Assembly: GCA_902597725.1 (NCBI GenBank)
Contig: CACJYQ010000007.1
Span: 1 to 46,166 of the forward strand
From: an uncultured Pelagibacteraceae bacterium
GTDB taxonomy: Bacteria > Pseudomonadota > Alphaproteobacteria > Pelagibacterales > Pelagibacteraceae
DNA length: 46,166 nucleotides
Reading direction: 5' to 3'
The position numbers and the translations under genes are program-made. Below are positions 8,845 to 12,531 of this stretch, piece by piece (the stretch's first letter is position 1; each line of letters opens with the position of its first letter). The notes under the pieces are model-generated. The model ran no database searches. It had not been told where the DNA came from and worked only from the letters and a program-made list of their open reading frames with translations.

Positions 8845-9270
8845 ATGTTTTTTAAAAAAGATAAGAACGAAAATAATGATCTATCTAAAGTAGCTGCACT
8901 TTTGATTCACGCTGCGAAAATTGATGAAAACTTTTCAAAAAGTGAAGAAGCTATTATAAAACAAGCTCTTTTACAAATAGGTGCAAGTAATGAAAATTTA
9001 GAAAGTATATTTTTAAATGGAAAAAAAATTGAGGAAAACTCAAATCAAATTTTAGAATTTACAAAAGAAGTAAAAAACATGGAAGAAAAAGATAAAGTAA
9101 AGATAGTTGAGACACTTTGGAGAATAATTTACTCAAACGATGAAGCAGATATTTATGAGACAAGTTTAATGAGAAGACTAGCTGGGCTATTATATATTGA
9201 CAATAAATTAATGGGCGATATTAAAGAAAAAATTAAAAGTAAATCTGATCATGACTTACATAGTAAATGA
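8845..9270 (+). CDS. TerB-like helical protein
   Basis: The 141-residue product resembles the TerB family. An N-terminal stretch [19 protein letters not shown] and a later segment [22 protein letters not shown] match the paired acidic helical repeats (D/E-x-x-x-x-x-E) of the fold. The molecular role of stand-alone TerB proteins is poorly defined, and some sit at membranes or bind metal ions. It starts four bases after the helicase and overlaps fdxA by 20 bases, so it is in one operon. In several alphaproteobacteria I recall an S4-type RNA-binding gene at this position instead. Confidence 0.75.
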
Positions 9271-9577
9271 TAAATGTATTAAGTGTAAATTAATGGACTG
9301 TGTAGAAGTTTGTCCTGTAGATTGTTTCTATGAAGGAAAAAATATGCTTGTAATTAAACCTGATGAGTGTATAGATTGTGGCGTTTGTGAACCAGAATGT
9401 CCTGTTGATGCGATTAAAGCTGATACAGAACCTGGTAGCGAAAAGTGGTTAGAAATCAATAAGCAATATTCTGAAATCTGGCCCAATATAAGTGAAAAAA
9501 AAGATCCACCTTCGGATAATGAAAAATATAAGAATGAGCAAAATAAGTTTGAAAAGTATTTTAAAGAAAACCTTTAA
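9251..9577 (+). CDS. fdxA: 7Fe-8S ferredoxin FdxA
   Basis: The 108-residue protein carries two cluster motifs. Cysteines 9, 17 and 21 have the spacing for a 3Fe-4S cluster, and C25 together with C40, C43, C46 and C50 (CxxCxxCxxxCP) fits a 4Fe-4S cluster. The C-terminal tail with [14 protein letters not shown] is characteristic of the FdxA family of alphaproteobacterial seven-iron ferredoxins, soluble electron carriers of low potential. Translation starts at the ATG at 9251, inside the end of the TerB-like gene. Its own end is overlapped by the carD start. Electron donors and acceptors are not indicated by the context. Confidence 0.93.
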
Positions 9578-10403
9578 AAAAAAATCAAAAACTCAAAAAT
9601 TAAAAAAGATCGCTAAAACTAAAAAGCCTAAATTAAGACAGACTAAAAAAACAAAAAAAATTAAAAAAATTACTAAAGCAACTACAAAACTCTCAAAAAA
9701 ATTAATAAAAAAAGCTGAGAAGAAAAATGAAACTCAATCAGAAAGCTTAAGAATTCCAAAAAATAACGAGCTAAAGCCCGAAATAAAAAAAGTTAAAAAA
9801 CAAAGTACTGAAAAAAGAGAATACAAAATTAAAGACTATGTAGTTTATCCTAAGCACGGAGTTGGCCAAATAACTGAGTTTAAGAAAATAAACATTGGAG
9901 GAATTGACGTAGAAACCTACATAATAAAATTTGAGAAAGATAAAGCCAATGGAATGGTGCCAGTAAATAAACAATCTAATTTGCGTCCACTTTCTACAAT
10001 TAATCAAGTAAACAAAAGTATATCAATTTTAAAAAGCAAACCCAAAATTAAAAGATCTATGTGGAGTAGAAGAGCTCAGGAATATGAAGCTAAGATTTCA
10101 TCTGGAAAAATTTATGAACTTGCTGAAGTAGTAAGAGATTTGAACAAAGGTGACGATATAATGATTGATCAATCTTATAGTGAAAGACAGCTTTTTGAAA
10201 AAGCTTATGAAAGAATTATTTCTGAGTTTCAAATAGTTCTAAATGTCTCAAAAGAAGAAACACAAAAGAAATTAGATAAAGCCCTAAAAAGAAATCTTAA
10301 TAAAGATGTAAGCGAAGAAGATAAAACTCCTAAAACATCAAATAATAATAATTTACCTGTTGAAGAGTCAATTTCAGATGTTGAAGAGCAAATTGAGGAT
10401 TAA
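9519..10403 (+). CDS. carD: CarD-family transcription regulator with long lysine-rich N-terminal tail
   Basis: The C-terminal two thirds form a CarD/CdnL protein: an RNA-polymerase-interacting beta fold starting at [17 protein letters not shown] and a helical DNA-binding part containing the conserved [14 protein letters not shown] and LAEVVRDL segments. CarD stabilises open promoter complexes, often at rRNA and stress genes. About 100 residues precede this domain, mostly lysine with Thr, Ala and Ile, resembling a histone H1 tail. The C-terminus is acidic ([13 protein letters not shown]). Usual CarD proteins are about 160-170 residues. The start is uncertain: GTG 9492, ATG 9519 and ATG 9534 are all in frame and overlap fdxA. 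None has a strong ribosome binding site. Confidence 0.85.
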
Positions 10404-10404
10404 A

Positions 10405-10446
10405 AAAAAACGCCTCCCACACAAAAAGTTATGAGAAGCGTTTTTT
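10405..10446. terminator. Bidirectional intrinsic terminator between carD and the basic micro-protein gene
   Basis: The arms AAAAAACGC at 10405-10413 and GCGTTTTTT at 10438-10446 pair, extended inward by CTC/GAG around a loop. A-runs on the left and T-runs on the right give a U-tract on both strands, so it can end carD (plus) and the micro-protein gene (minus). Confidence 0.75.
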
Positions 10447-10464: not shown

Positions 10465-10542
10465 TTATCTTCTTCTTCTTTTTTTAGCTTTTTTCTTAGC
10501 TTTTTTCTTAGCCTTCTTTGCTTTTTTTCTTCTCTTAGGCAT
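10465..10542 (-). CDS. 25-residue Lys/Arg/Ala micro-protein
   Basis: An ATG at 10542 opens 25 codons ending in TAA at 10465. After Met-Pro every residue is Lys, Arg or Ala: alternating KKA/KKKA units end in four arginines. A strong ribosome binding site (AAGGGAGC) sits about seven bases before the ATG, a clear promoter lies upstream and a terminator lies just downstream, so this looks like an independent transcription unit. No protein fold is expected; such a peptide would bind nucleic acid or the ribosome by charge. By analogy it could act like a histone H1-type tail, a nucleoid compaction peptide or a small ribosomal protein such as THX. These roles are inference, and I recognise no named family. 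It is convergent with carD, whose product has a similar lysine-rich tail. Confidence 0.72.
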   Translation of the reverse strand: MPKRRKKAKKAKKKAKKKAKKRRRR

Positions 10543-10565
10543 CTTTAGCTCCCTTTTTTAGTTAA

Positions 10566-10584
10566 ACGAATCAAAATGATTCGT
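10566..10584. promoter_or_regulatory. Perfect inverted repeat in the 5' leader of the micro-protein gene
   Basis: ACGAATCA at 10566-10573 and TGATTCGT at 10577-10584 are exact inverted copies around AAA. On the minus strand the repeat lies between the predicted transcription start (about 10588) and the ribosome binding site. It could be a 5' stabilising hairpin in RNA or a dimeric protein operator in DNA. Confidence 0.6.
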
Positions 10585-10594
10585 AATTAACTTA

Positions 10595-10623
10595 TTTTTA
10601 TTTTTTTATACACGTTATGTCAA
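10595..10623 (-). promoter_or_regulatory. Promoter of the basic micro-protein gene
   Basis: On the minus strand a perfect TTGACA (10623-10618) is followed after 17 bases by TAAAAA (10600-10595). The predicted start near 10588 leaves a leader of about 46 bases containing the inverted repeat and a strong GGGAGC ribosome binding site. Confidence 0.6.
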
Positions 10624-10741: not shown

Positions 10742-12442
10742 TTAATAAAGTTTTTCTAACTCATCTTTATATTTTTCTAAAATTTTTTTTCTTTTTAATT
10801 TTAAAGTTGGAGTTAACATTCCATTTTCAATTGAAAATTCTTCTTCAATTAATTTAAATTTCTTAACTTTTTCTACTAATGATAAAGTTTTATTTAAATT
10901 TTCTAAAAAAATTTCAATTTCTTTTCTATTTTCAGTGCTTTCAGAAACAATTAGCGCAACTAAATAAGTTTTTTTGTCTCCATAAACAAAACTTTGTTTA
11001 ATTTTTTCGTTTAAACATAATAAATTTTCAATTTTAGATGGTGATATATTATCTCCTCCAAGACTAACTATTATTTCTTTCTTTCTATCAGTAATTTTTA
11101 AATTTCCTTCTCTTGTGATCTCTCCTATATCACCGGTGTGCAACCAGCCATTCTTTATGACATCATCTGTCTCTTTTTTCATATTCCAATATCCAAGCAT
11201 TACATTTTCGCCTTTAACTAAAATTTCACCATCCTCCGCAATATTTACTTGGTTTGTTTTGAATGGAGGTCCTACTGTTTCAATCTTGATTTTTCCTGGA
11301 ATATTGCAACTTACTACAGGCGAGGCTTCTGTTAAACCATACCCTTGTAAAGTTGGCAACCCTATAGCATTCAAAAATTCACCAATCTTTTGATCTAGGG
11401 CACCACCCCCAGATACAAAGGCTTTTAGTTTTCCACCGAACTGATTTTTTATCTTTTTTCTTACTAGTTTTTCACAAAAAAAATTAACTAATTTTTCTCT
11501 TAATGTTAAATTCTGATTATTTAATTTTTTGATACCAAGGGAGATAGTGGATAATATCAGTTTTTTCTTAAACCCTTTTTGTTTTGAAAAATTCATTGAA
11601 ATTTTACTATACAAATTTTGATAAAATCTTGGGACAGCTGTCATAATCGTAGGTTTTGCAATAGACATATTGGATAATAACTTCTCTAGACTTTCGGCGT
11701 AATAAATTTTTGCACCAAGCGAAATTTGAACAAATTGAACTGCATGTTCGTATGAGTGAGATAACGGTAACCATGTTAAAAAGATAGGCTCACTATCCTG
11801 AACTAATTGATTTAATATTTCTTGAGCTCCCTCACAATTTGATAAAATTCCTCCATGACTAAGCATTACTCCTTTGGGATTACCAGTCGTTCCAGATGTA
11901 TAAATTATACAAGCAAGATCTTTTCTTCCAAGATTTTGATTAAAACCTATCTGAGGATTTGATTCATTTTTTTTTAAATATGCATCGAATATATTTTCTA
12001 TATTCTCAACTTTTTCATTTATGTTTTCAAAAGATAAAACTTTTATCTCCTCTGAAATAAATTTTTTAATTTTTTTTAATTGGGTTTCATTAGAGACGAA
12101 ACAAATTTTTGGCTTACAATCATTAATGATGTATTCATAATCTTTCTCTGAATAAGTTGTAAATAATGGCACCGTTACTCCACCTGCATTCATAATTGAT
12201 ATGTCAGAGATAAGCCACTCTGGTCGATTTTCAGATAATAGGATACATCGGTCTCCTTCAGCTAAGTTTGCTCTCAAGTATTCAGATAAAATTTGAATTT
12301 TTAAAGCAACTTGTTCCCAAGTAACAAAATCTTTTTCATTTTCTTTTAACCATTTTAAAAATGGTTTTTTAGCAACTGAGTTAATTTCTTTATACTTTGT
12401 AAAAAAAAGTTCCACTAAACTGTTTATTCTACTTAATTGCAT
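10742..12442 (-). CDS. Long-chain acyl-CoA synthetase (AMP-forming)
   Basis: The 566-residue protein is a complete adenylate-forming enzyme that activates fatty acids to acyl-CoA through an acyl-AMP. Visible motifs are the phosphate-binding loop IIYTSGTTGNPKG, the adenine-binding GYGLTEASPV, the ribose-binding Asp in GWLHTGDIGEI and the hinge DRKKEIIVSLGGDNISP. The order and the TLKLKRKKILEKY C-terminus match the FadD15/long-chain group of bacterial synthetases rather than acetyl-CoA synthetase. It probably acts at the inner membrane surface. It starts just after tRNA-Leu on the same strand, with only four bases between the mature tRNA end and its ATG, so tRNA processing would define the 5' end of any shared transcript. 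Confidence 0.92.
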   Translation of the reverse strand: MQLSRINSLVELFFTKYKEINSVAKKPFLKWLKENEKDFVTWEQVALKIQILSEYLRANLAEGDRCILLSENRPEWLISDISIMNAGGVTVPLFTTYSEKDYEYIINDCKPKICFVSNETQLKKIKKFISEEIKVLSFENINEKVENIENIFDAYLKKNESNPQIGFNQNLGRKDLACIIYTSGTTGNPKGVMLSHGGILSNCEGAQEILNQLVQDSEPIFLTWLPLSHSYEHAVQFVQISLGAKIYYAESLEKLLSNMSIAKPTIMTAVPRFYQNLYSKISMNFSKQKGFKKKLILSTISLGIKKLNNQNLTLREKLVNFFCEKLVRKKIKNQFGGKLKAFVSGGGALDQKIGEFLNAIGLPTLQGYGLTEASPVVSCNIPGKIKIETVGPPFKTNQVNIAEDGEILVKGENVMLGYWNMKKETDDVIKNGWLHTGDIGEITREGNLKITDRKKEIIVSLGGDNISPSKIENLLCLNEKIKQSFVYGDKKTYLVALIVSESTENRKEIEIFLENLNKTLSLVEKVKKFKLIEEEFSIENGMLTPTLKLKRKKILEKYKDELEKLY

Positions 12443-12446
12443 AATT

Positions 12447-12531
12447 TGGTGGGCGAAGAGAGAATCGAACTCTCACTTCTTGCGAAACACGATTTTGAGT
12501 CGTGCGCGTCTACCAGTTCCGCCATTCGCCC
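12447..12531 (-). tRNA. tRNA-Leu (anticodon CAA)
   Basis: Read on the minus strand, GGGCGAA pairs with TTCGCCC in the acceptor stem. The anticodon stem CACGA/TCGTG encloses CTCAAAA, giving CAA for UUG. A long variable arm typical of class II tRNAs is present. The T loop is GTTCGATTC, and discriminator A plus an encoded CCA end at 12447. Confidence 0.97.

Follow-up and report, generated by a model that had tools for sequence, protein, structure and literature searches.

The window analysed here, a 46,166-nt stretch of contig CACJYQ010000007.1, comes from an uncultured Pelagibacteraceae bacterium whose assembly comprises 0.82 Mb in 39 contigs and is 75% complete. At positions 10465..10542 the minus strand carries an ORF of 25 codons, running from an ATG at 10542 to a TAA ending at 10465. 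Its product, MPKRRKKAKKAKKKAKKKAKKRRRR, consists of Met and Pro followed by 13 Lys, 6 Arg and 4 Ala, with a side-chain net charge of +19. A previous sequence-only reading of the same DNA had described a 25-residue protein made exclusively of these three residue types after Met-Pro, with a charge near +20, and both this description and the coordinates are correct; it gave no strand, which is the minus one (the plus strand over 10465-10542 translates as LSSSSFF...). Within the window, this is the sole ATG-initiated ORF of 20-120 aa in which Lys and Arg make up at least 60% of the residues, and no such ORF appeared in any of 60 mononucleotide shuffles of the window. An alternative in-frame start further upstream (MIRLTKKRELK...) was rejected, being open at only 6 of 80 loci.

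The small gene is convergent with carD (9492..10403, plus strand), which possesses the Pfam CarD_C and CarD_TRCF_RID domains and served as our synteny anchor; its exact start codon is uncertain. CarD had been credited with a similar Lys-rich tail, but the Lys-rich part of this protein is an N-terminal extension and its C-terminus is acidic. The extension spans roughly 100 residues (window 9492-9800) and overlaps the end of the upstream ORF 9251-9577, ferredoxin-like by eye; most CarD homologues of the class align only from about residue 83 or later. On the other side of the small gene, 4 nt separate the end of a tRNA-Leu gene (12447-12531, minus strand) from the first ATG of an acyl-CoA ligase ORF (10742-12442, minus strand); the ligase therefore probably starts at a later codon.

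The signals of a complete transcription unit surround the 25-codon ORF. A consensus scan places a -35 hexamer TTGACA at 10618..10623 (minus strand, read from 10623 to 10618) and a predicted weak -10 element (TAAAAA / AAAAAT) at 10594..10600 of the same strand, 17-18 nt away; judging from this spacing, transcription would start near 10588. The Shine-Dalgarno sequence GGGAG (10549..10553, minus strand) lies 6 nt upstream of the ATG. Beyond the stop codon, a bidirectional intrinsic terminator (10402..10445), recognized by eye as a hairpin with a T-run, is predicted to be common to the small gene on the minus strand and carD on the plus strand. The consensus scan listed no terminators in this region, we think because the loop (about 14 nt) exceeds the limit of 8 set for the scan. 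Taken alone, such signals carry little weight, as the region contains 8 promoter-like sites versus 7.2 expected from shuffles, with the TTGACA promoter tying for best (10/12). It is their conservation that gives them weight.

A Lys/Arg-rich ORF convergent to carD was present at all 140 loci of the SAR11 order (Pelagibacterales) that we examined, 137 of them complete and 3 cut by contig ends. These loci combine two sets that share some genomes, namely the best 80 of 525 carD relatives from a named genome collection (ORF in 80/80, 78 of them complete and 2 truncated at a contig end) and 60 of the 102 genomes with a carD match among the 117 of the order (ORF in 60/60; 59 complete, 1 cut). The latter were hand-picked to spread over genera and include 10 from the sister family; overall, besides the genus of the window, 5 genera of its family and 4 of the sister family are represented. 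The complete rows, together with 7 loci from a search with the 25-mer, provided 127 distinct leader-plus-coding units. Of these, 106 were grouped with the genus of the window, 11 belong to other genera of the family and 10 to the sister family; for the 80 named records the grouping is assumed from carD identity (66-90%). Among these units, TTGACA is exact in 121 of 127 (2 of the remainder are cut short), GGAG stands directly before the ATG in all 127, and the 80 nt 3' of the stop codon fold at -18 to -29 kcal/mol, with at least five consecutive T in 126. The order-wide conservation of frame, promoter, ribosome binding site and terminator strongly supports a genuine gene forming a transcription unit of its own, as had been proposed from the sequence alone. 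The origin of the ORF as a chance low-complexity frame in A-rich DNA, which could be imagined given an A+T-rich genome and A-rich Lys codons, has a negligible probability and is already refuted by its presence at 140/140 loci and its absence from each of the 60 shuffles.

Similarity searches are nearly blind to this gene. With the 25-mer as query only 7 of 147 family genomes matched, owing to the score lost to low complexity, and synteny finds the gene in genomes that the query missed (G017, G026 and G035 among them). Searched against 142 genomes of the class, the 85-aa form produced two weak matches (E 0.006 and 0.009) and missed known positives (the own genome and G009), while a profile of 9 of the 10 sister-family proteins yielded no matches and missed the own genome as well, which makes it uninformative. 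Inspection of 20 carD loci from other orders of Alphaproteobacteria, hand-chosen from 79 carD-bearing genomes, revealed no orthologue at any of them; two ORFs of 15 and 17 aa near carD in other orders passed a loose filter and were judged unrelated by eye. The control region can also be searched directly. The pattern TTGACA-N30-38-CGAATCA, which joins the -35 hexamer to a conserved 7-mer of the leader, is present in 22 of 31 relatives, once in each, and 21 of these sites lead to a complete Lys/Arg ORF, the contig at the remaining one ending 7 bases into the ORF; the reversed pattern gave 3 matches in the same 31 relatives. Accordingly, the promoter-CGAATCA unit is specific to the small Lys/Arg gene in the relatives searched. 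In the class sample, 35 of 142 genomes (the own one among them) contained the pattern, at 44 places in all; the reversed control was found in 8 genomes, at 9 places. None of the 25 places inspected, out of 43 outside the order, lies upstream of a Lys/Arg-rich ORF. Absence of the gene outside the order is not proven by the carD neighbourhoods and the promoter pattern, which are the two weaker tests.

Loci chosen for an identical protein are unable to test selection, and substitutions were therefore counted on spanning trees over the distinct coding sequences (equal-length classes only; edges with >12 changes skipped; multi-base codon changes counted once). Of 80 substitutions, 53 were synonymous versus 27 non-synonymous, whereas the synonymous share expected from the codons of the window is 19-26% (P between 1e-20 and 5e-14; with 30% assumed, P 2.5e-11). 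These comparisons indicate that the minus-strand ORF is most probably translated, and they bear on the idea of a transcript that functions chiefly as a structured small RNA, the peptide being secondary. Conservation of the leader hairpin (see below) and terminator would suit such an RNA, as would the many synonymous sites frozen among near relatives, but the reading frame survives numerous in-frame changes of length, the substitutions are mostly synonymous, the ribosome binding site is found in 127/127 units, and no Rfam family reaches the gathering score at the locus. We therefore consider a primarily RNA-level function quite unlikely. Three sub-threshold Rfam matches (rhtB, ctRNA_pT181 and STnc430, best E 0.03) were dropped.

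AAG is twice as frequent among the Lys codons of the distinct coding sequences (fraction 0.30) as in the long ORFs of the window (0.145), and the longest A-run averages 7.3, versus 9.2 when the Lys codons are permuted and 10.1 when they are drawn at the window rate; the window gene taken alone does not reach significance (0.38 and 0.07). AAG is frozen at many positions among orthologues, which shortens poly(A) runs. The placement of AAG is suggestive of selection against slippage or poly(A) runs.

The length of the protein is highly variable within the order. Complete forms measure 21-35 aa in the group of the window and 21-50 aa in other genera of the family (for example MAKRRKKAKKATKKKAKKATKKKGKKKKATKRRKKR), while those of the sister family reach 40-91 aa and begin with MEELKVIFAKA or a near variant, followed by AAPKKK / KRKPAKKK-like units. 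After Met, all rows outside the sister family (repeat genomes included) contain K 2056, R 687, A 645, P 108, T 86, S 5, G 1 and V 1, and across the 127 distinct units the charge lies between +17 and +50. The series shows short tandem repeats and changes of length that keep the frame, the repeats being weak in the 25-mer (KKKA repeats). Neither Pfam nor NCBIfam assigned a family to the 25-mer or to four chosen orthologues (36, 50, 85 and 91 aa), a test weakened by the low-complexity correction. By composition and repeat structure, the series appears to be H1-like in kind, assigned to no named family. The direction of the length change is unpolarised, a weak search having found no outgroup copy. 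In one sister-family genome two contigs end at the small gene, the first within it close to the start and the second shortly beyond carD; these ends fit an assembly break at a repeat-rich coding region, and short-read assemblies may lose long forms.

This variation matters for the choice between nucleoid and ribosome, both of which had been put forward as possible sites of action of a minimal peptide. The proteins eL41, bTHX and mycobacterial bL37 are tiny, basic and ribosomal, with about 25 residues, mostly Lys and Arg, and a fixed length and sequence, and a SAR11 counterpart would be a short Lys/Arg helix threaded into rRNA. Size and charge fit this picture, the ribosome binding site is strong, and the same 25-aa sequence recurs at 50 loci, not all of them from different genomes. 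A protein that ranges from 21 to 91 aa through gain and loss of repeats is, however, unlike a part held in a fixed rRNA pocket, and in a PDB sequence search the 25-mer found no match and the 85-aa form a single weak one (E 2.9, an L29 chain), biased composition weakening this test. The ribosomal half of the proposal is thus disfavoured by the free variation in length, and we rate it as improbable, though deserving of some attention; the nucleoid half fares better, given the H1-tail-like repeats of the longer orthologues.

Near the 5' end of the predicted transcript lies the inverted repeat CGAATCA-TTT-TGATTCG (10567..10583, minus strand), a predicted RNA hairpin that contains two GANTC sites (10568-10572 and 10578-10582); neither the conserved GANTC element nor the orthologue series featured in the sequence-only reading. 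The 7-mer CGAATCA (10577..10583, minus strand; reverse complement TGATTCG) is found in 126 of 127 distinct units, with CGAATCG in the last, and the spacing from TTGAC(A) to CGAATC is 32-36 nt in the 125 units reaching far enough upstream. In 7 of 31 relatives the exact palindrome was located, each time at a single place, as it was in the own (75% complete) genome. All 86 distinct leader segments are predicted to form a hairpin, with z scores that average -5.8 and run from -14.5 to -1.7 versus mononucleotide shuffles. For 75 of them, no more than 2 of 200 shuffles reached the longest perfect inverted repeat, the other 11 being less clear; as the segments are mutually related, these do not amount to 86 independent tests. 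Within the window's group, 95 of the 106 units have the arms CGAATCA..TGATTCG, while other genera possess stems of CGAATC..GATTTG or of a longer ATCACTTAA..TTAAGTGAT type, and both the arm spacing and the 3' arm vary by genus. Changes on both sides of a pair were seen at hairpin positions 0, 8, 9 and 12, in small numbers, and the 3' arm drifts with pairing retained. In 6 of the 86 segments, from three genera, the letters CGA are unpaired yet invariant, so that pairing alone does not seem to account for the conservation of the 7-mer. A role of the palindrome as the operator of a dimeric repressor was considered and is disfavoured by the varying distance between the 7-mer arms (2-4 nt) and a 3' arm that differs between genera.

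The second GANTC site is absent in 11/11 distinct units from other genera of the family. GANTC as such is depleted in the window (91 found versus 142 expected from dinucleotide shuffles), as has been reported for Alphaproteobacteria (PMC3973325), and the leader of the small gene retains two; TGATTCG occurs in the window at chance level (3 found versus 3.3 expected), two of the three copies being in this leader. According to a hypothesis from Caulobacter work, GcrA activates only methylated GANTC with the extended motif TGATTCG or YGAKTCK, although in the same account no such extension was found for Brevundimonas; it also cautions that short motifs precede many genes, adding that conservation across orthologues could point to regulation (PMC7987155). 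A CcrM homologue has been noted in SAR11 (PMC3973325), and GANTC methylation is reported in Pelagibacter, with a suggested role in the cell cycle (PMC9516812). In the relatives examined here, GcrA (PF07750) was detected in 26 of 31 genomes, 13 of 15 good ones, and the RAMA domain (PF18755) in 28 of 31, including 15 of 15 good ones, the own genome being positive for both; among 14 control genomes, PF07750 matched two, Caulobacter and, oddly, Sulfolobus, and PF18755 Caulobacter alone. Judging by the RAMA domain, SAR11 relatives thus appear to possess a CcrM-type protein. An extended GANTC conserved at the promoter region in nearly every unit suggests that synthesis of the small protein may be timed by CcrM and GcrA. 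The fit is not a textbook one, because CGAATCA would lie at about +4 if the predicted start is right, just downstream of it, rather than across the -35 and -10 elements; at ctrA P1, GcrA protection is described as spanning -35 to -10 (PMC3667746). The single GANTC of the 11 units from other genera, the result for Brevundimonas and the chance-level frequency of TGATTCG in the window also speak against a simple GcrA reading.

Taken together, we consider it fairly probable that the gene, vertically inherited in the SAR11 order, encodes a minimal H1-tail-like polycation that condenses or coats nucleic acid, most likely in the nucleoid, from a monocistronic, GANTC-bearing unit that is a candidate CcrM/GcrA target. 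The 25-residue chain, which leaves no room for a folded domain, would be disordered, or helical only when bound, and would work by charge, neutralising and bridging phosphate backbones so that the nucleic acid is condensed or coated. Its main target would most likely be the nucleoid, where it would act alongside HU, a family detected in 21 of the 21 relatives searched. Nucleoid condensation or coating is the best reading because the orthologues are H1-like, HU is found in all of these relatives and length is little constrained. A polycation also binds rRNA and other polyanions, and rRNA is the main rival target. The mRNA would start at the TTGACA promoter, a few nucleotides before the 5'-terminal hairpin, and end at the terminator common with carD. 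Stem-loops at 5' ends are known to stabilise messages, and the hairpin would probably protect this one, which also carries a strong ribosome binding site. The 25-mer may be abundant, in line with the high expression anticipated earlier. Methylation of CGAATCA/TGATTCG by CcrM and its recognition by GcrA would then time synthesis to replication.

A different polyanion could be involved, the protein serving as a tether or organiser of polyphosphate or PHB granules in the manner of the tails of AlgP and PhaF. In Pseudomonas, the Lys/Ala/Pro tail of AlgP is needed for the spacing of polyphosphate granules, and a role in tying granules to the nucleoid has been proposed for PhaF (PMC9239181). AlgP possesses a separate N-terminal domain that the short SAR11 form lacks, and all SAR11 carD loci examined have the small gene beside them, whereas only some SAR11 are reported to carry pha genes (PMC12113158); a granule-related function accordingly seems to us a distant prospect.

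Returning to the nucleoid, a bolder version may be offered tentatively, and we would not expect it to hold in full: the SAR11 chromosome would be packed by a bare H1 tail of 21-35 residues, pulsed once per cell cycle through a single promoter that CcrM and GcrA would gate at TGATTCG, a site conserved throughout the order and placed where transcription starts. If true, replication would be tied directly, by epigenetic means, to compaction of the nucleoid in cells that rank among the most abundant in the ocean. The single conserved promoter offers a test case for GcrA/CcrM control in SAR11, and chromosome packing in minimal cells becomes testable with a synthetic peptide. The gene is too short and biased for model-based annotation and its product would fall apart in tryptic proteomics, so that a possibly abundant protein may go uncounted. 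A literature search, with subscription journals and supplements largely outside its reach, retrieved no paper on a Lys-rich or H1-like small SAR11 protein among those listed; misannotated Pelagibacter coding regions are listed in the supplement of PMC2704228. What appears to be new is a bacterial protein of H1-like kind reduced to the bare tail and accompanied by an unusual control element, with a proposed function in nucleic-acid condensation.

Comparison with known systems places the gene as follows. With the GcrA/CcrM-controlled promoters of Caulobacter and Brevundimonas it shares the extended GANTC TGATTCG (YGAKTCK in the Caulobacter proposal) and the presence of GcrA and the RAMA domain in SAR11; it differs in that the SAR11 site falls just past the predicted start, inside a predicted RNA hairpin, and in that no such extension was found for Brevundimonas. 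The likeness to eL41, bTHX and bL37 is confined to a size of about 25 residues, mostly Lys and Arg, their length and sequence being fixed while those of the SAR11 proteins vary among genera together with the repeats. The C-terminal KPAA domains of AlgP and PhaF also consist of Lys/Ala/Pro repeats that have been likened to the H1 tail, but in AlgP the tail, with a 154-aa repeat region, follows a predicted helical domain of 124 aa (PMC9239181), whereas in SAR11 the tail is the whole protein. Chlamydial Hc2 (165-237 aa) and Bordetella BpH1 (182-206 aa) display H1-like repeats with in-frame length variation (PMC2848022). Like these proteins and chlamydial Hc1, the SAR11 series combines short Lys/Ala(/Pro/Thr)-rich repeats, in-frame repeat gain and loss, and high positive charge; unlike Hc2 and BpH1, its members are 21-91 aa long, the shortest nearly repeat-free, and are devoid of a folded or dimerising domain. 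To our knowledge, the 25-mer would be about the smallest H1-like protein.
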